A DNA stretch of 64,000 nucleotides from Aceticella autotrophica (GCF_017357865.1 NZ_CP060096.1:372001-436000); one strand, 5' to 3'; shown: positions 28,062 to 54,053, numbered from the stretch's first letter. The notes: generated by a model from the letters alone, not told the origin. Program-made: numbers and translations.

Positions 28062-28691
28062 TTGGGAAACGAAGAATTCATGGTTCTTGTTTTAAAAAGA
28101 TTTGACAGCATAGATGAAAATCTTGTTAAGATGAATGAAAGATTTAATAATGTAGAGAAAAGGCTTGATGGTTTAGAAGTAAGGTTTGAGAATGTAGAGA
28201 AAAGGCTTGATGGTTTAGAAGTAAGATTTGACAATGTAGAGAAAAGGCTTGATGGTTTAGAAGTAAGGTTTGAGAATGTAGAGAAAAGGCTTGATGGTTT
28301 AGAAGTAAGATTTGACAATGTAGAGAAAAGGCTTGATGGTTTAGAAGTAAGGTTTAATAATGTAGAGAAAAGACTTGATAGTTTAGAAGTAAGGTTTGAG
28401 AATGTAGAGAAAAGACTTGATAGTTTAGAAGTAAGATTTGACAATGTTGAGAAAAGATTTGATGATATGGGAGTAAGATTTGATAATGTTGAGAAAAGAC
28501 TTGATGATATGGAATATATTTTAAAGGCTACATATGATCAAACCCAAAAGAATACAGAACAATTGTCTAAATATGATTTTCATTTCAGGAGAATGGATAA
28601 AAAGCTTGAGTCATTAAATGACCGTTTATTAGAAAGAGACGCAGACGTAAAACTCCTTCTTGAAACGACAGGATTAGATAAGATGCTGTAA
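28062..28691 (+). CDS. Coiled-coil protein with tandem 14-residue repeats
   Basis: 209 residues, TTG start after AGAGGAGGGGAACAC. After an N-terminal segment (EFMVLVLKRFDSIDENLVKM), nine copies of a 14-residue unit of the type RFENVEKRLDGLEV run from about residue 27 to 152. They are followed by a non-repeated helical tail (YILKATYDQTQKNTEQL to TGLDKML). Each unit is two heptads, so it should form a long rod-like coiled coil. There is no signal peptide. Similar repeat proteins are common in Thermoanaerobacterales and their role is unknown. The antisense frame is a low-complexity shadow. Confidence 0.8.
   Translation: MGNEEFMVLVLKRFDSIDENLVKMNERFNNVEKRLDGLEVRFENVEKRLDGLEVRFDNVEKRLDGLEVRFENVEKRLDGLEVRFDNVEKRLDGLEVRFNNVEKRLDSLEVRFENVEKRLDSLEVRFDNVEKRFDDMGVRFDNVEKRLDDMEYILKATYDQTQKNTEQLSKYDFHFRRMDKKLESLNDRLLERDADVKLLLETTGLDKML
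28140..28517 (+). repeat. 42-bp tandem repeat within the coiled-coil gene, nine units
   Basis: Nine head-to-tail 42-bp units. The first seven are nearly identical in DNA and alternate between two or three variants (FEN, FDN, FNN; DGLEV, DSLEV). The last two are more diverged. The near-identity indicates recent expansion, and copy number is likely to vary between strains. Confidence 0.9.
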
Positions 28692-33581: not shown

Positions 33582-33730
33582 TATAAATGACAGAACGAAA
33601 AATATAAGCAAAGAGTTAAAAGTGTGATACAAAAATGATACGCAAAATTTCTGAAGCCATAATTTTTTAACGAAAATAGAAATAATAATGACGTGAAATG
33701 CAGTAAAATCAAGTATAGGTAGTAATAAAT

Positions 33731-34044
33731 AGCCCACCTTTAATGCTGCAAAATAAAAGGCAAGCAGTATAAAGGGCGGGCTACTTTAAAACTTTAAAAC
33801 TAAAAAATACATAAAAATTTTGAAAATTAAAAAAAAATCGAGTAAAATAAAGTAAGAATGAGATAATTAAAAAAAAAAAAAAACGCCTGAATTTGGATAA
33901 ATATGATAATATTTAAGGTTTGCACAAAATGAAAATAAATGTTACATTATTTTTGGAAGATCTTTCAATGGAAAACATTATAAACATCCGGATGAGGCAC
34001 GCTCCGCTTAATATTAATAAATCATTGAAAAGAGGTGAAGATCT
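33731..34044 (+). repeat. Cassette junction 4 (leader of the lactococcin-972-type gene)
   Basis: Terminator at 33731-33787. A15 tract at about 33869. Candidate promoter ending in CATTATAAA; CATCCGGATG at 33985. The last 30 bp differ from other copies (AAAAGAGGTGAAGATCT as RBS), so the crossover point lies just before the gene. Confidence 0.85.
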
Positions 34045-34410
34045 ATGTTTAAGAAACGGTTTTTGAGTATTTTACTGATAGTTGCGATGCTTACTTTATT
34101 ATCTGGAGCTTCGGCAATGGCTGCAAATATAAAAGCACCAACAAGTGGTTCGGTAACCCTTACTAATTCACAGGTAACTCCATTTTCAGTTGTATCAGCT
34201 GGAGGTGGAACCTGGAATTATGGTACTGAAATTAACTCCGGTATAAAGCATGTATGGTCATATTATATACATCCATCAAAGCGCCATTCTTCAACAGCTA
34301 TAATAGGAAGCAGTCAAGATAAAGAGTATGCAGGAGCAGGAGTATGGTCTTATGCTGATGCTTTTGGCGCTTGGAACCAAACCGGATATGCATATTATCA
34401 TACGTATTAG
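34045..34410 (+). CDS. Lactococcin 972 family bacteriocin (cassette 4)
   Basis: 121 residues with an intact signal peptide (MFKKRFLSILLIVAMLTLLS, cut near AMAA). The mature part carries the lactococcin-972 family pattern: GGTWNYG, then VWSYYIHPSKRHSSTAIIG, then GAGVWSYADAFGAWNQTGYAYYHTY. Unlike most small bacteriocins this class is Sec-exported and acts on lipid II, blocking septum formation. It is followed by its typical DUF1430 membrane protein and ABC ATPase genes. This is the one cassette whose function can be named with confidence, and it anchors the reading of the array. Confidence 0.93.
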   Translation: MFKKRFLSILLIVAMLTLLSGASAMAANIKAPTSGSVTLTNSQVTPFSVVSAGGGTWNYGTEINSGIKHVWSYYIHPSKRHSSTAIIGSSQDKEYAGAGVWSYADAFGAWNQTGYAYYHTY

Positions 34411-34551
34411 TTAATTTGCTTCAAACTCCAATATCATAATTGAAATTGTATTATCCTATGCCACTCTTGGAATAGGTGGCATAGGATATCTTAATATTTG
34501 GGCATAGGAATTTTTCACTTTATTATGACATTGTGAAGGGAGATTGTTGCT

Positions 34552-36771
34552 TTGAAAAAGATTTTAATAATATTTCTCATTTTAGCTTTTATTCCATCCT
34601 TTTTTATAGTTTATAGCCAAACAACTGAAAAAGAATTTGAAAAAATGGAAAAAGCGGGAGAAGATATAGGAAAGCCATTTATAATTCCAAACAATCCTTT
34701 GTTTAGCAACCCGAATGAGATGTATCCAATATTATGTGAGGCAGCCAATGAACACAAGGTCAATATTTTCAGAACGAATATCTGCTATAAAGCAAATAAT
34801 CAGGTAGAAATTCTTAAATATGTTTTACTGACAAGTAACACCCGCTTTTTTGACGCCTTCAGACTGAAAAGCGGCAGATTGTTGACAGCAAAGGATACGC
34901 AGGATAGCAATGCTTTTATATCTACGGTAGATACTGGAGATCACAACCAGATTGGAATTATCAGGGAGTTCGGAAGTAGTAAGCTGATAACGATCAAACC
35001 GCTCAAGACTGCTTATGAATATCTGCCTGTAGATGGCCGATATTTTGTGGAAGCATCTGACAATCAGGTATATGCAGCGTTCATCAAAGATTTTGTAAAT
35101 AAGGTCAATAAGTATTATCAGCAGTCATATTCTGCCAAATATTTTCAAGAAGCGAGTAATTCTGGAGCAGGATTGCAAGTTACCACTTTGATAGATTACT
35201 TAAAATATATCAATTACGCTATTTTCCTCACAACTTTAATCTTATTAATCTACTATATTTTTTATGAGTCCAAGAGGATAGGTATCATGAAGATGCATGG
35301 ACTCTCCAATATCCGCTTATGGTTTATCATATGCGGAAAACTAATTACCATTATTTTTATTCTAACAGCAGCGGTTTCTCTGCTTGTAGCCTTAATAATT
35401 AAAGATACGACATCTCAGTTTGTTGGCAGCGTCATCATTTTCCAGTTTAAAGCCTATCTCATTATGATGGCGATTTCGATTATACCATATATATATATTT
35501 CCAGAATCAAGATTAGTGATGCCATCAAGAACCGTAAAGATACCAATGGTATCTTTACCATAAATATGCTGCTCAAGATGGGCTGTTCTATATTGGCGGT
35601 TATGGTCGGTCTTTCAATTTTTAGCCAGTATGCCGAAATCCGTACCAAGCAGGAAAATCTGAAAAACTGGGAGCAAAGCAAAGATTATGGGATTTTTTAT
35701 CCTGTTAACATCGGTAATGATATAGAAGATGTACAGCAAGGTTCGCGTAAAGAGACCGCAATCGAAGCTGTTGAGCTCTATCCTGTTCTAAATAAAATGG
35801 GGGCAGTATTAATAGATGCACTAAGTTATGAAGAAAGAGCACTACTTATGAACAAGGGCACAGACAATATACGATCAATAAAAGTGAACCCTAACTATTT
35901 GCAACGGTTTCCTGTGTATGATTTACATAATCAGCCTGTGCATATCTCTGAGGATACATGTGATTGGATTTTGCTGGTGCCAGAAAAGTATTACAACAGG
36001 GAAAATGAAATAATGAACTATTTTCATAAAGATAGAATAGATGCCTATGATGCTGAAGAGCATTGTTTTGGGAGATTAGTCCCAGATAGTGTAAAAAATC
36101 AACATATAAAAATTATCTGGCTGACCAATAACCAGAAGATATTCAGTTTCAATCCGAAGGTATTTCCAGCAGAAAACAATATGATTATAGACCCAATCAT
36201 TCAGGTGATAACCGAAAAAAATAGTATCTGTGCAGACAGGGTGAATCTAATAAATGGTCATGGAGGTAGTGACCCGCTAAAGGTGAAGCTAATCAACAGA
36301 GATACGGCACTTACCTTGAGGATGCTTGAGAGCGAACTTAAAAGGCTGAAACTGGATGATAACCTGCAGCAACTGATAACTGTCGACCAGTATGTTTTGC
36401 AGCAAATATATGATCTGCAAAAATGGATGAATCATCTTTTGCTGATAATCATGGGGTTGATAGTGGGATTATTGATACTTATGGTGCAAAATCTGACCAT
36501 ATTTTTCAACAAATATCAACAAAAATTCATAGTACGCAGATTATTTGGAACTGGATTTTTTAGAACATATAAGGAGTACATTTTGTTATTCACACTGACA
36601 TGGATATTTCAGTTATTGATTTGTTTAATTGTTAAGCCAAATGGAGCAGATGATATCAAGTTGCTTGCATTAGCAGCAGGTATAATATTGATTGAGGTTG
36701 CAGCTTCTGTTATTGCACTTTTGGTTATAGAGCAGAAAAACAAGGTAAAGATTTTAAAGGGAGGGATTTGA
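34552..36771 (+). CDS. Bacteriocin-associated integral membrane protein (DUF1430), immunity permease
   Basis: 739 residues, TTG start after GAAGGGAG. One N-terminal membrane segment, an outside domain, a group of about four segments between residues 220 and 365, a second large outside domain, and three segments after residue 625. Length and topology, with LEILKYVLLTS-like and GRYFVEASDN blocks, match the family found behind lactococcin-972 genes. With the ATPase it forms a MacB/FtsX-like transporter thought to give self-protection or export. Long and undamaged. Confidence 0.88.
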   Translation: MKKILIIFLILAFIPSFFIVYSQTTEKEFEKMEKAGEDIGKPFIIPNNPLFSNPNEMYPILCEAANEHKVNIFRTNICYKANNQVEILKYVLLTSNTRFFDAFRLKSGRLLTAKDTQDSNAFISTVDTGDHNQIGIIREFGSSKLITIKPLKTAYEYLPVDGRYFVEASDNQVYAAFIKDFVNKVNKYYQQSYSAKYFQEASNSGAGLQVTTLIDYLKYINYAIFLTTLILLIYYIFYESKRIGIMKMHGLSNIRLWFIICGKLITIIFILTAAVSLLVALIIKDTTSQFVGSVIIFQFKAYLIMMAISIIPYIYISRIKISDAIKNRKDTNGIFTINMLLKMGCSILAVMVGLSIFSQYAEIRTKQENLKNWEQSKDYGIFYPVNIGNDIEDVQQGSRKETAIEAVELYPVLNKMGAVLIDALSYEERALLMNKGTDNIRSIKVNPNYLQRFPVYDLHNQPVHISEDTCDWILLVPEKYYNRENEIMNYFHKDRIDAYDAEEHCFGRLVPDSVKNQHIKIIWLTNNQKIFSFNPKVFPAENNMIIDPIIQVITEKNSICADRVNLINGHGGSDPLKVKLINRDTALTLRMLESELKRLKLDDNLQQLITVDQYVLQQIYDLQKWMNHLLLIIMGLIVGLLILMVQNLTIFFNKYQQKFIVRRLFGTGFFRTYKEYILLFTLTWIFQLLICLIVKPNGADDIKLLALAAGIILIEVAASVIALLVIEQKNKVKILKGGI

Positions 36772-36776
36772 CCGCC

Positions 36777-37418
36777 ATGGAAAAAGTATGTGAGCTTATT
36801 AATATCAGCAAAAGCTATGGAGATCATGTGGTTCTAAATAATATAAGCCTTGCTGTATGTGAGGGAGAAATGGTTGCAATTATGGGAAAAAGCGGTTCGG
36901 GGAAAACGACTATTTTAAACATAATAGGAATGCTTGAAAAGCCGGACAGTGGTGTTGTCAAACTATTTAACGAAAAAAGTCCGCGTATCGGTTCATGTAG
37001 AGCAAATAAGCTTCTCAGAAATAGAATTTCTTACCTATTTCAAAATTGTGCACTTATTGATAATGAAACAGTGGAATATAATCTTGAAATTCCGCTGATA
37101 TATTCAAAAAAACCGAGGAAGGAGAAACAAAAGCTAAAAATAGATGCATTGAAGAAGGTTGGTATGAACATTTCTCTCAAGCATAAAATATATGAGCTCT
37201 CAGGAGGAGAACAACAGAGGGTTGCCATAGCAAGAATACTTTTAAAGCCTTGCGATTTGATACTTGCTGATGAACCCACAGGATCGCTGGATACTGACAA
37301 TAGAAATGAAATAATGAGGATTTTAAGAGAATTTATTAGCACTGGCAAGACCATACTAATTGTCACCCATGATCAATATGTTGCAGGAGTGTGCGATAGA
37401 ACAATAAAATTGGCATAA
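36777..37418 (+). CDS. ABC transporter ATP-binding protein, bacteriocin immunity
   Basis: 213 residues from the ATG at 36777 (a TTG 9 nt earlier also in frame). Walker A GKSGSGKTTILNIIGML, Q-loop YLFQNCALIDNETVEYNLEIPL, signature LSGGEQQRVAIARILL, Walker B LILADEPTGSLD, switch THDQ. It is of the MacB/LolD class that pairs with FtsX-like permeases. It lies 5 bp after the DUF1430 gene and is part of the lactococcin-972 operon. Confidence 0.93.
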   Translation: MEKVCELINISKSYGDHVVLNNISLAVCEGEMVAIMGKSGSGKTTILNIIGMLEKPDSGVVKLFNEKSPRIGSCRANKLLRNRISYLFQNCALIDNETVEYNLEIPLIYSKKPRKEKQKLKIDALKKVGMNISLKHKIYELSGGEQQRVAIARILLKPCDLILADEPTGSLDTDNRNEIMRILREFISTGKTILIVTHDQYVAGVCDRTIKLA

Positions 37419-37466
37419 AAATAAACTGATTTTTCATTATGCAGGATATATATTTACTAAGTATAG

Positions 37467-37789
37467 GTACCTCACTCCTTTATGTTGCAAAATAGAAAGC
37501 ATATCTATTTAACAAGCAGCATAAAGGGTGGGCTATTTTTAAAATTAAAAAATACATAAAGATTATTGTAAATGGCAGGAAAATCGAGTAAAATAAAGGA
37601 AGAATGATATAATTCAAAAAAACGGCTTAAATTGGATAAATATGATAATATTTAAGGTTTACACAAAATGAAAATAAATGTTACTCTGTTTTTGGAAGAT
37701 CTTTCAATGGAAAATATAATAAACATCCGGATGAGACACGCTCCGTTTTATTCAGTAAAATCAAATAATATAAAGGGAGATGTTGGTAA
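37467..37789 (+). repeat. Cassette junction 5
   Basis: Terminator at 37467-37540 with a degenerate left arm (GTACCTCACTCCTTTATG) and intact right arm (GCATAAAGGGTGGGCT, then five T). A7 tract. Candidate promoter TTGGAA, 17 bp, TATAAT; CATCCGGATG at 37724. Confidence 0.85.
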
Positions 37790-38488
37790 ATGTTTAAAAA
37801 AATTATTTCATTTCTTCTAGTTTTGACACTTCTTTCGGTTTCAAGTTTGAGTTCTGTTTTTGCGGCTCATACAAATAAATTAATAGACCCAATGTCTGTT
37901 AAAGGATACAACAATATACTTTATTTTAAACCTTCTGCTAAAGCCATTAACTTTACTCGCAAAATGATTGATAGTGGGTTAATTAAAGAATTTTCTCTAA
38001 ATAAAGATGGCAAGATAACTTTAGATAAATCATATGATAGTCTAAAATCAGAGTATAATTTAGATGAGTCAGATATTAATAACCTAAAAATTGTAGCTGC
38101 AAGTTTAGAAAAAATAAATTATAATGGTAATATAAAAAATATAAATCAAAACAATATAATAAGTTCAAAAAATGTTATATCACCAATGCTGTCAGTTTCA
38201 GGATGGAAAATTTATTTTACTTACAATGATGTTGTCAATTATTTAGGAGCAGCAGCTTCAGCAGGTCCTATTTATATGATTGCAGCATTAGATGCATTAG
38301 GTGTTCTAACTGGTGGAGCAGTAGGTACTGTTATAGATCTTATTCTTGATATTGTTGGTGCAGCATCAATGGCTAATCTTTGCTATCTTGCTATTCAAGC
38401 CATGCACTATCATGAAGGCATTTATATTGGAATTGAATGGAATGGAGTATTTCCTAACTACGTTCAAGGATTTTGGAAAGGTAAATAA
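37790..38488 (+). CDS. Secreted hydrophobic C-terminus protein, putative bacteriocin (cassette 5)
   Basis: 232 residues. The standard signal peptide (MFKKIISFLLVLTLLSVSSL) is followed by a charged region to about residue 135. Then comes a hydrophobic Gly/Ala-rich C-terminus (VVNYLGAAASAGPIYMIAAL, GVLTGGAVGTVIDLILDIVG) ending with an aromatic tail (IEWNGVFPNYVQGFWKGK). The layout is the same as cassettes 1 and 7 but the sequence is not similar. A four-segment membrane protein gene follows in the immunity slot, behind an RNA hairpin. Confidence 0.6.
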   Translation: MFKKIISFLLVLTLLSVSSLSSVFAAHTNKLIDPMSVKGYNNILYFKPSAKAINFTRKMIDSGLIKEFSLNKDGKITLDKSYDSLKSEYNLDESDINNLKIVAASLEKINYNGNIKNINQNNIISSKNVISPMLSVSGWKIYFTYNDVVNYLGAAASAGPIYMIAALDALGVLTGGAVGTVIDLILDIVGAASMANLCYLAIQAMHYHEGIYIGIEWNGVFPNYVQGFWKGK

Positions 38489-39584: not shown

Positions 39585-41492
39585 GAGTCCACTCGGAATC
39601 ATCAATCATAAATTAACAAATATGTTATTGAAAGCCATATAATTTACAAAAAAAATACTCCTAAACACACACGAAATAAGCACTTAAGAGGTATTTTTTA
39701 TGGTATAATATAAATAATATAAAAAAATGTGGTGATAAAAATGATAGGAAAAGCAGATAGACAAATGTCATTTTCAGATTATTGGTTACTTGGGAAAATT
39801 TCTGAAGTAAGTTATTATCATAGATTAAGAACATGGGTATTTAATAATCTTAATGAAGAAATGTTTCAGCCACTTTTCTCATACTATGGCAGAGAATCCA
39901 TATCCCCAGTATATACATTTACAGCGATGCTGATACAATTTGAAAAAGGATATTCTGATCGTGAAATGGAAGAAGAATCACGATTCGATGATAGAATTAA
40001 ATATGCATTAACCGCACCACGGGATTTTGATGGAATAGATGCAGTAACATTATGTGATCATAGAAAAAGACTGTTTAACAGTGAAATAGGAAAAGAAATA
40101 TTTATTAAAACAATTAGTCAGGCAAAAGAAGTAGGACTGTTTAATAAAGACAACTTACATATAATAGATTCATTCATGATTTGGGGCTCTTGTGCCAGAC
40201 AAGATACTTACACTATGATATACCAAGGGATAAAGATGGTTCTCCGTTTCATGAAGTTTTACGAAATGGAAGATGCATCAAAAAAAATACTGAAAAGAAC
40301 AGATTATGAAGAAAATATCAAAAAACCCAAAATAGCATGGGAAAATGAAAAAGAAAAAGCAAAATTACTCGAAGAACTTGTTAAAGATGCACTATCACTC
40401 GTAGAAAATATAAAAACAAAAAAAGATATAAAAGATGATTTAAAAAAAGCAATTGAATTATTAGAAAGAATAGCATTACAAGATGTTGAAATAACAAACG
40501 ATGGGCATGTAAAAATGATAAAAGGAACAGCGAAAGACAGAATAATATCAGTAGTAGATGACGAAATGCGCCATGGTAGAAAGACCTCATCGAAATTATC
40601 AGATGGATACAAAGCTGAAATTATAACAGGAGGAGAAAAAGGCTCAGTAGTAGTAGGAATAGAAGTCGATGGAGCAAATATAGCAGATGGTGAACATATG
40701 AGTGATCTTATAGAACAAAGCCGAAGAAACGGCGTTGATATAGATAAACTGTATGGAGATTGTGCATATAGTGACTTTGAAGAAATAGAAAAAAGGAAAG
40801 AAGAAGGAACAGATTTTTGCATTAGAGTACCGGAAGCAACAAATCCAAGTGGAGGATTTTCAAAAGAAGAATTCAAAATTGATTTAGAAAAAGGAACAGT
40901 AGAATGTCCCAACGGACACATAAAACAATTTGATACTGAAAAAACGCAAAAACATGAGCAAGTTACAGTAAAATTTAGAGCAGAAGAATGTAATGATTGT
41001 CCGCTAAAAGACCAATGTACAAAATCAAAAAAAGGGAGAACAATAAATATACATCCATATGAAAAAGAGATACAAGAACAAAGAGAATATCAAAAAACAG
41101 ATGAATTTAAAGAAGACTATGCAAAAAGACCGAATGTAGAAAGAAACATATCAGAACTTACCAGGCATGGCGGACGTAAAGGAAGGTATAGAGGGAAATT
41201 AAAAATAAGATGGCAAATGATAATGGTAGCAATAAACAATAATATCAAAGTAATAATGAAACATATTTCTAAAATTTGTAATAGACAAATTAAGAAGGGA
41301 GAAGTCTGCCCAAAAACGGCTTAAAGAATAGTTAATGAGATTAAAAATAGCAATAACAGATCAATAAAGCAGAACATACATATTAAAATCAATAACAAAG
41401 TCATATATATTTAGTTAAATAGAGATTATTCTGATAATTTTTGTGATGATAAAAATTTTTAACCTGTAGATAAGCTCTTTCCGAGTGGACTC
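39585..41492 (+). mobile_element. IS1182-like insertion sequence, copy 1
   Basis: 1908 bp. Terminal inverted repeat GAGTCCACTCGGAA at 39585, with its complement ending at 41492. CTAG flanks it on both sides (39581-39584 and 41493-41496), the palindromic 4-bp duplication often seen with this family. It is complete and separated from copy 2 only by the shared CTAG. Confidence 0.92.
39741..41324 (+). CDS. IS1182 family transposase
   Basis: 527 residues from the ATG at 39741 (TGTGGTGATAAAA upstream). The N-terminal DUF772 region (SPVYTFTAMLIQFEKGYSDREM and the preceding RLRTWVFNN) is followed by a DDE domain with IDSFMIWGSCARQD, GDCAYSDFEE and NISELTRHGGRKGRYRGKLK. A cysteine cluster (CNDCPLKDQC) lies before the last catalytic Glu region. 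Undamaged and probably active, since a near-identical copy lies next to it. Confidence 0.95.
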   Translation: MIGKADRQMSFSDYWLLGKISEVSYYHRLRTWVFNNLNEEMFQPLFSYYGRESISPVYTFTAMLIQFEKGYSDREMEEESRFDDRIKYALTAPRDFDGIDAVTLCDHRKRLFNSEIGKEIFIKTISQAKEVGLFNKDNLHIIDSFMIWGSCARQDTYTMIYQGIKMVLRFMKFYEMEDASKKILKRTDYEENIKKPKIAWENEKEKAKLLEELVKDALSLVENIKTKKDIKDDLKKAIELLERIALQDVEITNDGHVKMIKGTAKDRIISVVDDEMRHGRKTSSKLSDGYKAEIITGGEKGSVVVGIEVDGANIADGEHMSDLIEQSRRNGVDIDKLYGDCAYSDFEEIEKRKEEGTDFCIRVPEATNPSGGFSKEEFKIDLEKGTVECPNGHIKQFDTEKTQKHEQVTVKFRAEECNDCPLKDQCTKSKKGRTINIHPYEKEIQEQREYQKTDEFKEDYAKRPNVERNISELTRHGGRKGRYRGKLKIRWQMIMVAINNNIKVIMKHISKICNRQIKKGEVCPKTA

Positions 41493-41496
41493 CTAG

Positions 41497-43405
41497 GAGT
41501 CCACTCGGAATCATCAATCATAAATTAACAAATATGTTATTGAAAGCCATATAATTTACAAAAAAAATACTCCTAAACACACACGAAATAAGCACTTAAG
41601 AGGTATTTTTTATGGTATAATATAAACAATATAAAAAAAATGTGGTGATAAAAATGATAGGAAAAGCAGATAGACAAATGTCATTTTCAGATTATTGGTT
41701 ACTTGGGAAAATTTCTGAAGTAAGTTATTATCATAGATTAAGAACATGGGTATTTAATAATCTTAATGAAGAAATGTTTCAGCCACTTTTCTCATACTAT
41801 GGCAGAGAATCCATATCCCCAGTATATACATTTACAGCGATGCTGATACAATTTGAAAAAGGATATTCTGATCGTGAAATGGAAGAAGAATCACGATTCG
41901 ATGATAGAATTAAATATGCATTAACCGCACCACGGGATTTTGATGGAATAGATGCAGTAACATTATGTGATCATAGAAAAAGACTGTTTAACAGTGAAAT
42001 AGGAAAAGAAATATTTATTAAAACAATTAGTCAGGCAAAAGAAGTAGGACTGTTTAATAAAGACAACTTACATATAATAGATTCATTCATGATTTGGGGC
42101 TCTTGTGCCAGACAAGATACTTACACTATGATATACCAAGGGATAAAGATGGTTCTCCGTTTCATGAAGTTTTACGAAATGGAAGATGCATCAAAAAAAA
42201 TACTGAAAAGAACAGATTATGAAGAAAATATCAAAAAACCCAAAATAGCATGGGAAAATGAAAAAGAAAAAGCAAAATTACTCGAAGAACTTGTTAAAGA
42301 TGCACTATCACTCGTAGAAAATATAAAAACAAAAAAAGATATAAAAGATGATTTAAAAAAAGCAATTGAATTATTAGAAAGAGTAGCATTACAAGATGTT
42401 GAAATAACAAACGATGGGCATGTAAAAATGATAGAAGGAACAGCGAAAGACAGAATAATATCAGTAGTAGATGACGAAATGCGCCATGGGAGAAAGACCT
42501 CATCGAAATTATCAGATGGATACAAAGCTGAAATTATAACAGGAGGAGAAAAAGGCTCAGTAGTAGTAGGAATAGAAGTCGATGGAGCAAATATAGCAGA
42601 TGGTGAACATATGAGTGATCTTATAGAACAAAGCCGAAGAAACGGCGTTGATATAGATAAACTGTATGGAGATTGTGCATATAGTGACTTTGAAGAAATA
42701 GAAAAAAGGAAAGAAGAAGGAACAGATTTTTGCATTAGAGTACCGGAAGCAACAAATCCAAGTGGAGGATTTTCAAAAGAAGAATTCAAAATTGATTTAG
42801 AAAAAGGAACAGTAGAATGTCCCAACGGACACATAAAACAATTTGATACTGAAAAAACGCAAAAACATGAGCAAGTTACAGTAAAATTTAGAGCAGAAGA
42901 ATGTAATGATTGTCCGCTAAAAGACCAATGTACAAAATCAAAAAAAGGGAGAACAATAAATATACATCCATATGAAAAAGAGATACAAGAACAAAGAGAA
43001 TATCAAAAAACAGATGAATTTAAAGAAGACTATGCAAAAAGACCGAATGTAGAAAGAAACATATCAGAACTTACCAGGCATGGCGGACGTAAAGGAAGGT
43101 ATAGAGGGAAATTAAAAATAAGATGGCAAATGATAATGGTAGCAATAAACAATAATATCAAAGTAATAATGAAACATATTTCTAAAATTTGTAATAGACA
43201 AATTAAGAAGGGAGAAGTCTGCCCAAAAACGGCTTAAAGAATGGTTAATGAGATTAAAAATAGCAATAACAGATCAATAAAGCAGAACATACATATTAAA
43301 ATCAATAACAAAGTCATATATATTTAGTTAAATAGAGATTATTCTGATAATTTTTGTGATGATAAAAATTTTTAACCTGTAGATAAGCTCTTTCCGAGTG
43401 GACTC
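41497..43405 (+). mobile_element. IS1182-like insertion sequence, copy 2 (tandem)
   Basis: 1909 bp, same orientation, same 14-bp ends, CTAG at 41493-41496 and 43406-43409. It differs from copy 1 by only a handful of bases (for example one extra A before the gene, and single changes near 42380, 42433 and 42489). Insertion of one copy at the CTAG duplicated by the other explains the arrangement. Confidence 0.92.
41654..43237 (+). CDS. IS1182 family transposase (second copy)
   Basis: 527 residues, differing from the first copy at two positions I can see: ERIALQ to ERVALQ and MIKGTAK to MIEGTAK. All catalytic and cysteine motifs are kept. The same start logic applies, with ATG at 41654. The pair forms a composite tandem that could mobilise or amplify neighbouring DNA, although nothing lies between the copies except CTAG. 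Confidence 0.95.
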   Translation: MIGKADRQMSFSDYWLLGKISEVSYYHRLRTWVFNNLNEEMFQPLFSYYGRESISPVYTFTAMLIQFEKGYSDREMEEESRFDDRIKYALTAPRDFDGIDAVTLCDHRKRLFNSEIGKEIFIKTISQAKEVGLFNKDNLHIIDSFMIWGSCARQDTYTMIYQGIKMVLRFMKFYEMEDASKKILKRTDYEENIKKPKIAWENEKEKAKLLEELVKDALSLVENIKTKKDIKDDLKKAIELLERVALQDVEITNDGHVKMIEGTAKDRIISVVDDEMRHGRKTSSKLSDGYKAEIITGGEKGSVVVGIEVDGANIADGEHMSDLIEQSRRNGVDIDKLYGDCAYSDFEEIEKRKEEGTDFCIRVPEATNPSGGFSKEEFKIDLEKGTVECPNGHIKQFDTEKTQKHEQVTVKFRAEECNDCPLKDQCTKSKKGRTINIHPYEKEIQEQREYQKTDEFKEDYAKRPNVERNISELTRHGGRKGRYRGKLKIRWQMIMVAINNNIKVIMKHISKICNRQIKKGEVCPKTA

Positions 43406-44224: not shown

Positions 44225-44597
44225 AACCCACCCTTAGTGCTGCTAAATAAAAAGCCATGATTTAACAAGCAATAAAGGGTGGGTTACTTTAAAACTTTAA
44301 AACTAAAAAATACATAAAGATGATTGTAAATAGTAGTAAAATCGAGTAAAATAAAGTAAAGATGAGATAATTCAAAAAAAAAAAAAACGCCTGAAATTGG
44401 ACAAATATAATAATATTTAAGGTTTGCACAAAATGAAAATAAATGTTACTTTATTTTTGGAAGATCTTTCATTGGAAAATATTCTATAAAATCATTCGAA
44501 TGAGTAAAATCGAAAAGGAAGGGAGGATGAAATAACTTAAAATTAAAGAACATTTTTTTATCTAATGTTTGAGGAAATAAAGGAAAAGAGGGATTAC
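44225..44597 (+). repeat. Cassette junction 6
   Basis: Terminator at 44225-44290. Its outer pair is AACCC/GGGTT instead of AGCCC/GGGCT, a compensated change. A13 tract. The palindrome at 44493 is CATTCGAATG, again changed symmetrically. The downstream part differs (ACGAAAAGGAAGGGAGG-type block, shared with junction 10). Confidence 0.85.
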
Positions 44598-45330
44598 ATG
44601 AATTTACCTACAAAATTTGTATCATTTACAATGTCTATACTTCTTCTACTTACTCCAGTTACAGTTAACGCTGCATCAGTTCAGGTCTATAAAGGAGCTT
44701 CCACAGTTATTTCAAAAGATTTGACATCAAATAACGAATCACTTCGGAAGAGTATTCTGAACAAGAATTTCGATGTGTCTAAAATGACTGCTGCTGAACG
44801 CAAATATTACGATTCCGTTGTTCAAACAGCGTTAATTAAAAGTGGTGGAAAATCTTTTAATACTACCGAAAACATTAAAATTGTAGAAGATATTGGCAGA
44901 TAAAGACAATCAAAATGAACCGGGAAAACCATTATCTGATTATTTAACTACTTCCGGATATTCCGTGGCTACTTCCAGAAGTTCCATTCACCACATAATA
45001 AGTGTTGGAATGGCAGGTGAAATTTTTAATACTGTAATTACTGTGGCGTTAACGTTTTATGGAGGAGGAAGCGCAGAAGCTTGCATTCGTACGCTAATTG
45101 CAAAATATGGTTATAATGAAGCCAGAAGCATTATTGAACAGCGAGTTGTAAGTAAAATTGTAAATACACTAATTAGGTGGGGAATGAAACCATCTCTCGT
45201 GCGTAGTCTGACTGGGGGGTTAACATGGACTATTCTTCAATCTGTCATAGACCCCGGAGGTGCAATAGCTAAGTACATCGATTCAAGGGATGCCGCACCT
45301 AATAATGGATGGATTGATGTGGCATATTGA
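44598..45330 (+). pseudogene. Secreted protein gene with a 2-bp frameshift (cassette 6)
   Basis: Starts at the ATG at 44598 (AAAGAGGGATTAC). A signal peptide (FVSFTMSILLLLTPVTVNA) is followed by KMTAAERKYYDSVVQTAL. After IVEDI the frame stops at 44903. The fragment at 39104 has two more bases here (GATTTGTTGG versus GATATTGG), and the +2 frame continues from 44893 as ADKDNQNEPGKPLSDYL to NNGWIDVAY (145 codons). The joined protein would be about 245 residues with hydrophobic C-terminal helices (GMAGEIFNTVITVALTFYGG), again like a membrane-active toxin. Now most likely inactive. Confidence 0.75.
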
Positions 45331-45348
45331 TGAAAAGGGTGAAGAGCA

Positions 45349-45753
45349 ATGCTGAATCATAAGATGTTGAAGTATAAGATTTTTCTAACATTGTATACTG
45401 TTTTACTTATAACGCTATTTTTTGCAAGTCTTAAGTATAAAATTCCAAATTATGTTTTGATTGCAGTCATTTGCTCGTCAGTATATGTGGCTATTCATAA
45501 TGAAACAGTGGGCATCAGTGCTTTCAGGGCTTTCCATCTTTTGAGATATAAAATGAATAAGAGGATGTTTAATGTGGTCAAGTTAATCCTTATGTTTAGT
45601 ATCTATTTTTCAGTGTTTAGTCTGAGAGACTATTTGAAAGAAACGAGAATATGCTCATTCCCATACTTACAAATGACGATGTTGATGGTAATGGAGGAAC
45701 TAGTAGCCGATACGGTTTTTGCTTTTTTTGTTAAGTGTGACCCAAAGAATTGA
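45349..45753 (+). CDS. Membrane protein, candidate immunity protein of cassette 6
   Basis: 134 residues. Three or four hydrophobic segments (IFLTLYTVLLITLFFASL, YVLIAVICSSVYVAI, VVKLILMFSIYFSVFSL, MTMLMVMEELVADTVFAFFV). It begins 18 bp after the broken secreted gene, behind AAAAGGGTGAAGAGC. It remains open although its partner is frameshifted, as expected if immunity still has value against producers. No family recognised. Confidence 0.55.
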   Translation: MLNHKMLKYKIFLTLYTVLLITLFFASLKYKIPNYVLIAVICSSVYVAIHNETVGISAFRAFHLLRYKMNKRMFNVVKLILMFSIYFSVFSLRDYLKETRICSFPYLQMTMLMVMEELVADTVFAFFVKCDPKN

Positions 45754-50616: not shown

Positions 50617-50655
50617 CAAAGTGTGTTTTTTATTCATTCGATAAATAGCAGTAGT

Positions 50656-50962
50656 AGTCCACCCTAAATGTTGCAAAATAAAAGGCAAGCAGCATAAAGG
50701 GCGGGCTATTTTTAAAATTAAAAAATTCATAAAGATTATTGTAAATAGCAGGAAAATCGAGTAAAATAAAGAAAACTTGAGATAATTCAAAAAAACGGTT
50801 TTAAATAGTAAAATATGACGTTATTTAAGGTTTGTACAAAAAAATAATAAATGTTACGCTATTTCTGGAAAATCTTTCATTAAACAACATTATAAATATC
50901 CGGATGAGACACGATCCGTTTTATTCAACAAAATTAAATAATAAAAAGGGAGATGTTGGTAA
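50656..50962 (+). repeat. Cassette junction 9
   Basis: Terminator at 50656-50713 (AGTCCACCCTAAATGTTGC to GCAGCATAAAGGGCGGGCT). A7 tract. The palindrome at 50897 has one change (TATCCGGATG). The leader is otherwise the standard form. Confidence 0.85.
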
Positions 50963-51100
50963 ATGTTTAAAAAAATTACATATGCTCGCGGGAACTTCCA
51001 CTGGGGTTTAGGATATGAAGGTAATTATTGGTCAATACAAGAAGTTTATGAAGATGTTAGGGTTAGTGTAAATTATGATGGAACAGTATACAGGAATTAA
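50963..51100 (+). pseudogene. Internal-deletion minigene of the cassette 11 family
   Basis: 45 codons: MFKKI, the first residues of the shared signal peptide, is joined in frame to TYARGNFHWGLGYEG and ends VSVNYDGTVYRN. The second part matches the last 40 residues of the gene at 53316 (AYARGNFHFGIEYQG). About 200 codons including most of the signal are missing. The leader and start are intact, so it may be transcribed, but the product can hardly be exported. Confidence 0.8.
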
Positions 51101-53315: not shown

Positions 53316-54053
53316 ATGTTTAAAAAAATTATTTCATTTCTTCTAGTTTTGGCACTTCTTTCAGTTTCAAGTTTGAGTTCTGCTTTTGCGGCTGAATTAA
53401 TAGGCAAACAAGCGATTGTAGATAATTTACCTACTATACTTATGAATAGAAATAACAAATTAGTTGATTATATAAAAAATAATTCGAATAAAAATGTGAT
53501 AAATGCTGTAGATACTTTTATAGAAGCTCATAAAATTGATGTATCTAAATACAAAGTGAAAGATTTTCAAAATAAAGCTTTGGTTAAAAAAGTTAATATA
53601 AATGACAATACCACAATTGAATTTAATTCAGATGGAAGCTTTGTTGTAGATACACTTACTTCAAAACCTATTTTAAATCAAGTTAGCAGTACTTCTTTAA
53701 TGACAACACGGTATAAATGGGCGGCGAACGATAGAATAGGATATAATGCCTGGGGAATGAAACTTTATCGTATCCATGTTGAATCAAACTTTGGGTATGA
53801 TGGGGTTTCAGCATGGTATGCAGGTGGTCTTATGGGTTATTATGAGAGGTATTTTGGCCCTGGTGGTTTTTGGCAGGTTTCTAATTGGGATACAGGTACT
53901 ACTGTTGTAAATGGTGGCGAGTATTGTCGTGCATATGCTCGCGGTAACTTTCATTTTGGTATAGAATATCAAGGCATTGGATGGGTAATACAAGATATTT
54001 ATGAAGATGTGAGAGTTAGTGTAAATTATGATGGAACGGTATACAGGAATTAA
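53316..54053 (+). CDS. Secreted aromatic-rich protein of unknown family (cassette 11)
   Basis: 245 residues with the complete shared signal peptide (MFKKIISFLLVLALLSVSSL, cut near AFAA). A helical pro-region to about residue 115 is followed by a Trp/Tyr/Gly-rich beta domain: YKWAANDRIGYNAWGMKLYR, SAWYAGGLMGYYERYFGPGG, GGEYCRAYARGNFHFGIEYQ, and VSVNYDGTVYRN at the end. It resembles small secreted bacteriocin-like or surface proteins but no family is recognised. It is followed by a 32-residue membrane peptide gene. The minigene at 50963 is its deletion relative. Confidence 0.6.
   Translation: MFKKIISFLLVLALLSVSSLSSAFAAELIGKQAIVDNLPTILMNRNNKLVDYIKNNSNKNVINAVDTFIEAHKIDVSKYKVKDFQNKALVKKVNINDNTTIEFNSDGSFVVDTLTSKPILNQVSSTSLMTTRYKWAANDRIGYNAWGMKLYRIHVESNFGYDGVSAWYAGGLMGYYERYFGPGGFWQVSNWDTGTTVVNGGEYCRAYARGNFHFGIEYQGIGWVIQDIYEDVRVSVNYDGTVYRN

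Follow-up and report, generated by a model that had tools for sequence, protein, structure and literature searches.

Lactococcin 972, a bacteriocin that acts on lipid II, is encoded in Lactococcus by the operon lcn972-orf2-orf3 of plasmid pBL1, in which the gene for a PF09683 precursor with a Sec-type signal is followed by two genes for a putative ATP-binding cassette (ABC) transporter (PMC4055356). The streptococcin B locus of pneumococcus, scbABC, likewise consists of a lactococcin-972-like gene and two partner genes, and it is part of the wider ComE regulon and has a locus-linked regulator (PMC11796350). In the pneumococcal blp region several bacteriocin-immunity operons, with variable cassettes and Abi/CAAX protease members, are induced together (PMC6422914). 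Precedent of a different kind comes from homopolymers of variable length at a fixed promoter or leader position in Helicobacter pylori. These are a T-tract beside the -35 element of sabA, the length of which tunes the promoter (PMC4081817), and a G-repeat in the tlpB leader that is targeted by a small RNA (PMC8295292).

Here we describe a lactococcin-972-type operon of Aceticella autotrophica and a repeated DNA block, containing a homopolymeric A-tract, that precedes both this operon and many other genes. The operon lies in a stretch of 64,000 nucleotides (GCF_017357865.1, NZ_CP060096.1:372001-436000), which we call the window and in which positions are counted from the first letter. The chromosome of strain 3443-3Ac (CP060096) comprises 2,267,618 bp, and the genome paper already reports a lactococcin 972 gene (genomic island GI5) as well as bacteriocin genes and C39 peptidases (genomic island GI10) (PMC10213532). 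The gene is therefore not a discovery of this work. The genomic-islands section of that paper makes no mention of the repeated block or of the A-tracts (PMC10213532). Both the gene and the operon type are already known, and the new part is the junction block with its exclusive, length-variable A-tract.

Unlike lcn972 on pBL1, the Aceticella operon is chromosomal and stands behind a block common to many other cassettes. The region after the signal also differs in length, with about 94 amino acids compared with 66 in the solved chain of lactococcin 972 (2lgn). Whereas scbABC has its linked regulator, we noticed no local regulator beside the Aceticella operon, which has instead the shared block with its A-tract. 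The Aceticella cassettes differ from those of the blp region in that they mix lactococcin-972, proteins with Sec signals and double-glycine peptides, and in the presence of the A-tract. The sabA and tlpB homopolymers do not have the geometry of the Aceticella tract. In contrast to them, one tract position is reused here in many copies across a bacteriocin repertoire, and the organism is no host-adapted pathogen but a thermophilic acetogen.

The lactococcin 972 operon

The operon consists of three genes on the same strand, the membrane protein and ATPase genes lying downstream of the bacteriocin gene.

34045-34410, + strand: lactococcin-972 family bacteriocin precursor, 121 amino acids, with a putative N-terminal Sec-type signal (MFKKRFLSILLIVAMLTLLSGASAMAA); PF09683, TIGR01653 and 2lgn matches
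34552-36771, + strand: bacteriocin-associated integral membrane protein (DUF1430), putative permease half of a self-protection ABC system; TIGR01654 and PF07242 matches
36768-37418 (likely start 36777), + strand: lactococcin-972-associated ABC ATPase; TIGR03608 match

The original prediction, made from the sequence without database searches, had assigned the 121-residue protein to the lactococcin-972 family and the next two genes to the DUF1430 and bacteriocin-associated ABC families, and had named a Pfam and TIGRFAM search as the check. In profile searches all three assignments were borne out above the curated cut-offs. The 121-residue protein matches PF09683 (63.2 bits, cut-off 22, E 3.4e-17) and TIGR01653 (40.8 bits, cut-off 32.1, E 2e-10), and it is the sole PF09683 match in the 2.27-Mb genome. 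The membrane protein, with 739 amino acids, matches TIGR01654, 'bacteriocin-associated integral membrane protein' (257 bits, cut-off 189, E 3e-76), and PF07242, DUF1430 (47 bits, cut-off 28.2, E 3e-12). The ATPase matches TIGR03608, 'L_ocin_972_ABC' (293 bits, cut-off 255, E 1e-87).

The N-terminus of the precursor, as read from the sequence, begins with positive charge followed by a hydrophobic stretch and an AMAA site, and the TIGR01653 alignment starts at residue 3. The list of PDB matches for this protein is headed by weak matches to 9hkj (E 0.007) and to lactococcin 972 itself (2lgn, E 0.017). A fold comparison with solved lactococcin 972 was dropped because the structure model, built from an alignment of two sequences only, had a predicted local distance difference test (pLDDT) score of 43. 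For the ATPase, ATG 36777 is a more probable start than TTG 36768, since the homologue in a same-family genome (G013) begins at the corresponding residue. All three genes are open over their full length and have homologues of matching size. Judged by its sequence, 34045-37418 is confirmed as a functional-looking lactococcin-972 operon and an ordinary member of its type.

Only one of 36 other genomes of the class has a PF09683 gene, and among 299 genomes drawn from across the phylum there are two besides that of Aceticella. The operon gene order is kept in G013, where identity is 47% for the bacteriocin, 58% for the membrane protein and 73% for the ATPase. A single scan of genome contigs for homologues returned only Bifidobacterium species, in which a related bacteriocin gene is followed by genes matching in size and order; the protein at the membrane-protein position there has no Pfam match.

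A repeated junction block

The same junction block was predicted to stand before the operon and before payloads of no known family. We do find it upstream of other payloads, and it opens with a terminator-like hairpin. A BLAST search of the genome with a 302-bp block query yielded 45 matches, of which the weaker were often short, and 28 copies, some of them partial, were aligned. The copies form two arrays, one at 29.1-54.5 kb of the window (+ strand) and one at 1,221-1,254 kb (- strand), and single or partial copies occur near 476, 843, 1068, 1075 and 1409 kb. Within each array the blocks lie head to tail at cassette junctions in one orientation. The features of the block before the lactococcin operon, and of the junction that follows the operon, are listed below.

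33730-33783, + strand: terminator-like hairpin opening the junction block and ending the preceding toxin-antitoxin (TA) pair cassette; minimum free energy (MFE) -25.7 kcal/mol, z -5.25 versus shuffles
33820-33848, + strand: promoter-like pair TTGAAA-N17-TAAAAT; 10 of 12 positions agree with the consensus, a score that is joint best for the region
33869-33883, + strand: homopolymeric A-tract (A15) of the block; starts 20-21 nt after the -10 hexamer
33884-34044, + strand: leader, with the conserved block part extending to about 34016 and then the cassette's own ribosome-binding site; from the block alignment
37464-37538, + strand: terminator hairpin closing the lactococcin cassette and opening the next block; MFE -28.3 kcal/mol, z -5.41
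37513-37751, + strand: next junction-block copy (A7), which precedes the secreted protein encoded at 37790-38488; identity to the lactococcin block 84%

The block consists of a hairpin (in cluster-1 copies), a promoter-like pair, the A-tract and a conserved leader of about 110 nt that ends near AACATCCGGATGAG, followed by the ribosome-binding site and gene of the individual cassette. The cluster-1 hairpin is terminator-like, with z about -5 in the two tested, and belongs to the preceding cassette. In the copy at 33730-33783 it is followed by a T-rich stretch; the same hairpin occurs in other cluster-1 blocks and, at 85-90% identity, after a related cassette in the same-family relatives G005 and G009. 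The promoter-like pair conforms to TTG[A/T]AA-N17-TAAANT in 25 of the 28 copies, and the spacer is always exactly 17 nt. The lactococcin block is mixed in type, having TTGAAA as in cluster 2 and the hairpin as in cluster 1.

The block was not found in 60 sampled relatives, none of the same genus, except for a 35-nt terminator piece that lies beside a related cassette in two same-family genomes. Block DNA had no match in a plasmid collection, and one exact leader pattern had none in viral contigs.

Other readings of the leader region were considered and rejected. As a structured RNA or known riboswitch, the leader has no Rfam match and folds no better than shuffles (z +0.65). A block-encoded leader peptide (MKINVTLFLEDLS...) was set aside because its start codon differs between copies. 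A promoter downstream of the A-tract (TATGATAAT), judged by eye, has no good -35 at a fixed distance.

An A-tract at a fixed position in the block

The A-tract begins 21 nt after the -10-like hexamer of the predicted promoter in all 20 blocks measured, and in the lactococcin block its first A replaces a C that precedes the tract in other copies. Across blocks the tract ranges from 6 to 39 nt. A whole-genome search for A13 gave 59 overlapping placements on the forward strand and 96 on the reverse, and the A-runs in the aligned blocks account for exactly these 59 and 96. By this matching of whole-genome placement counts to aligned blocks, every genomic A-run of at least 13 lies at one block site and in one orientation. 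There are 18 such runs, with lengths of 13, 14, 15, 15, 16, 17, 17, 18, 19, 20, 20, 21, 21, 22, 25, 27, 32 and 39. Away from the blocks, A-runs in the window reach at most 8 on either strand.

Markov models trained on the window outside the blocks predict approximately 2 to 15 runs of at least 13 genome-wide by chance, so that the number of such runs alone is unremarkable. For runs of at least 20 the expectation is 0.0004 to 0.03, and nine are observed, all in blocks. The length of the tract changes faster than the flanking sequence between copies within this one genome: one pair of blocks has A7 and A39 and is 94% identical elsewhere, and another has A21 and A25 at 97% identity.

Genes preceded by the block

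The block stands before some two dozen other genes that are largely weapon-like. In the window the payloads are lactococcin-972, a phd/yefM-parE TA pair and a series of proteins with putative Sec-type signals, several of which are followed by a gene for a small membrane protein. Of the roughly ten short peptides encoded in the second array, most have a double-glycine-type leader and most are followed by a small membrane protein. Several of these peptides have weak matches to Bacteriocin_IIc under the Pfam cut-off, and one exceeds the NCBIfam cut-off for lactococcin G-beta. Close to this array are also a CAAX protease and the C39 peptidase exporter, the latter both at full length and as truncated copies. 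Lactococcin-972 and about ten operons of short double-glycine-type peptides therefore have a common upstream block.

The lactococcin operon had been taken to reveal antagonism as the theme of the array, and the other secreted proteins were suggested to be antagonistic as well, with immunity as the role of the genes after them. The theme itself gains from the second array, where the same block precedes double-glycine class II bacteriocins with a C39 exporter nearby; with the predicted gene content of that array, the case for antagonism is stronger than the lactococcin operon makes it by itself. The suggestion does not extend as readily to every payload. The window proteins with putative Sec-type signals match no family over a curated cut-off, and none of the unassigned payloads matches a toxin family at that level. 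Some blocks precede genes other than bacteriocins: at 1409 kb an ABC system, at 476 kb a surface protein, and in further cases the phd/yefM-parE pair or, where the block is partial, a relE-like pair.

At 476-480 kb (L045 5956-10436), a divergent block (A18) is followed by a 1421-residue pilin-like surface protein and then by a sortase-like gene. By eye, the surface protein is repeat-rich with a gel-anchoring type C-terminus and is not an obvious bacteriocin. The truncated C39 exporter copies (L041 3493-3762 and L040 8469-8816, both - strand) comprise the first ~75 codons of the gene and lie directly upstream of second-array blocks; they look as if cassettes were inserted into, or duplicated with, the 5' end of the exporter gene. 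Just before the array in the window, 28062-28691 encodes a coiled-coil protein of near-identical 14-residue repeats.

Proposed role of the block and its A-tract

We propose that the block transcribes each cassette from a conserved, predicted sigma-A-like promoter. Transcription from the promoter-like pair would place the A-tract in the early transcribed leader. Slippage in the tract would then set the output of each cassette separately, and a population would come to hold cells with different weapon settings. In the lactococcin cassette, the precursor would be exported by Sec and mature to a small protein, which may block cell-wall synthesis in neighbouring cells via lipid II, as lactococcin 972 does. 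The DUF1430 membrane protein and the ABC ATPase would protect the producer.

On balance we think it probable that the lactococcin-972 operon belongs to a block-driven set of cassettes devoted mostly to antagonism, with slippage in the A-tract of the shared promoter as the most likely means of tuning each one. The broader reading is more tentative. In it, one duplicated promoter would run the whole arsenal of bacteriocins and secreted proteins, and its hypermutable A-tract would set the output of every weapon independently, so that a clone hedges its bets with a combinatorial repertoire. We hold this idea plausible without quite favoring it.

Several points weigh against tuning by the tract. 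Transcription, start site and activity are predictions from the sequence. Transcription from the predicted promoter would put the tract in the 5' untranslated region, where the sabA mechanism would not apply as such. The length differences are between copies of one genome and not between strains, and the exact lengths may be off, as they come from a Nanopore assembly corrected with Illumina reads (PMC10213532). Finally, six cluster-1 blocks have A6-A7 only, and a long tract is thus not needed for the arrangement.

Alternative explanations

The operon may instead be an ordinary one in an array grown by duplication, with the block serving as a shared region for cassette swap by homologous recombination and the A-tract as an inert, slippage-prone by-product. 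Where cassettes have the MFKKIISFLL signal, their DNA is highly identical across the block and the signal peptide, after which the identity stops. Such a sharp end near the end of the signal peptide fits swapping, as does the combination of both block types in the lactococcin block. The payload of 44565-45753 is also present, with 88% DNA identity, in the relatives G005 and G009. These two have the same signal-peptide DNA as other window cassettes (88-94%) and the same terminator (mostly 85-90%), and their payload region has no match to the promoter and A-tract part of the block. One ancestral A-tract copied around would likewise give exclusivity. Recombination between shared ends is, we infer, the simplest account of cassette exchange. 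However, an inert tract accords poorly with a promoter pair, a 17-nt spacer and a 21-nt offset that stay constant while the flanks differ, and with the confinement of A-runs of at least 13 to the blocks. We regard this explanation as unlikely, though one to be kept in view beside tuning by the tract.

A second alternative concerns the two partner proteins, which might export the bacteriocin rather than protect the producer. TIGR03608 bears the name 'putative bacteriocin export ABC transporter', and ScbB and ScbC are called predicted immunity and transporter proteins, the function of the B and C gene products being unverified in any lactococcin-972 locus (PMC11796350). However, the bacteriocin precursor has its own putative N-terminal Sec-type signal. 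We consider a role in export improbable and retain self-protection as the putative function of this pair.

It is also very improbable that the operon survives only as a silent remnant of a decaying island rich in insertion sequences. The neighbourhood does contain broken cassettes (44565-45330, which is split, and the open reading frame (ORF) near 50962, a fused remnant) and tandem transposases (39729-43237), but the three operon genes are full length with size-matched homologues and the promoter-like pair is intact. Barely credible is the view that the cassettes move as units akin to those of integrons or to transposons, a dedicated enzyme recombining them at the block: the head-to-tail blocks in one orientation per array, the placement of the gene in island GI5 by the genome paper (PMC10213532) and the nearby transposases would suit it, but the block has promoter and leader features and sits 5' of genes, its ends are ragged with partial copies present, and no integrase-like ORF was noticed by eye in the window ORF list, no model search having been made.

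Broken cassettes and a candidate regulator

The payload at 44565-45330 is split into two ORFs and has another N-terminus; G005 and G009 have intact homologues of 235 residues with the same small partner gene. At approximately 50655-51097, a block and five signal-peptide codons run in frame into what is left of a payload resembling that at 53316, its last ~40 residues, and by this arrangement the region is a deletion remnant. Two nearly identical transposase genes (39729-41324 and 41642-43237) lie in tandem inside the array, and the same transposase is also found beside several isolated block copies.

A 50%-identical homologue of the payload at 53316 occurs in G009, immediately after a GAF-LuxR regulator gene, which in that genome is split. 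A related GAF-LuxR regulator precedes lactococcin-972 in G013, a likeness that also favors the antagonism theme. In Aceticella a full-length GAF-LuxR gene is present at 1206.7-1207.4 kb, about 14 kb from the second array, and the encoded protein is a candidate regulator of the block set. This gene, together with those for a radical SAM protein and a PqqD-domain protein, makes up a set resembling those for ribosomally synthesized and post-translationally modified peptides near the second array (L073 6507-9444; 1204.5-1207.4 kb). In G013 the regulator tail and promoter region upstream of lactococcin-972 are repeated before the next secreted-protein gene (L064 5085-5900 and 9302-9701), a parallel to the duplication of the block in Aceticella.

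Significance

Through the shared block, two genomic islands, two secretion routes and many payloads of no known family come together in one candidate regulon. Secreted proteins without a family thereby become testable bacteriocin candidates. If the A-tract does tune expression, a free-living thermophile would provide a clear case in which a contingency-type repeat governs a whole set of interbacterial weapons.

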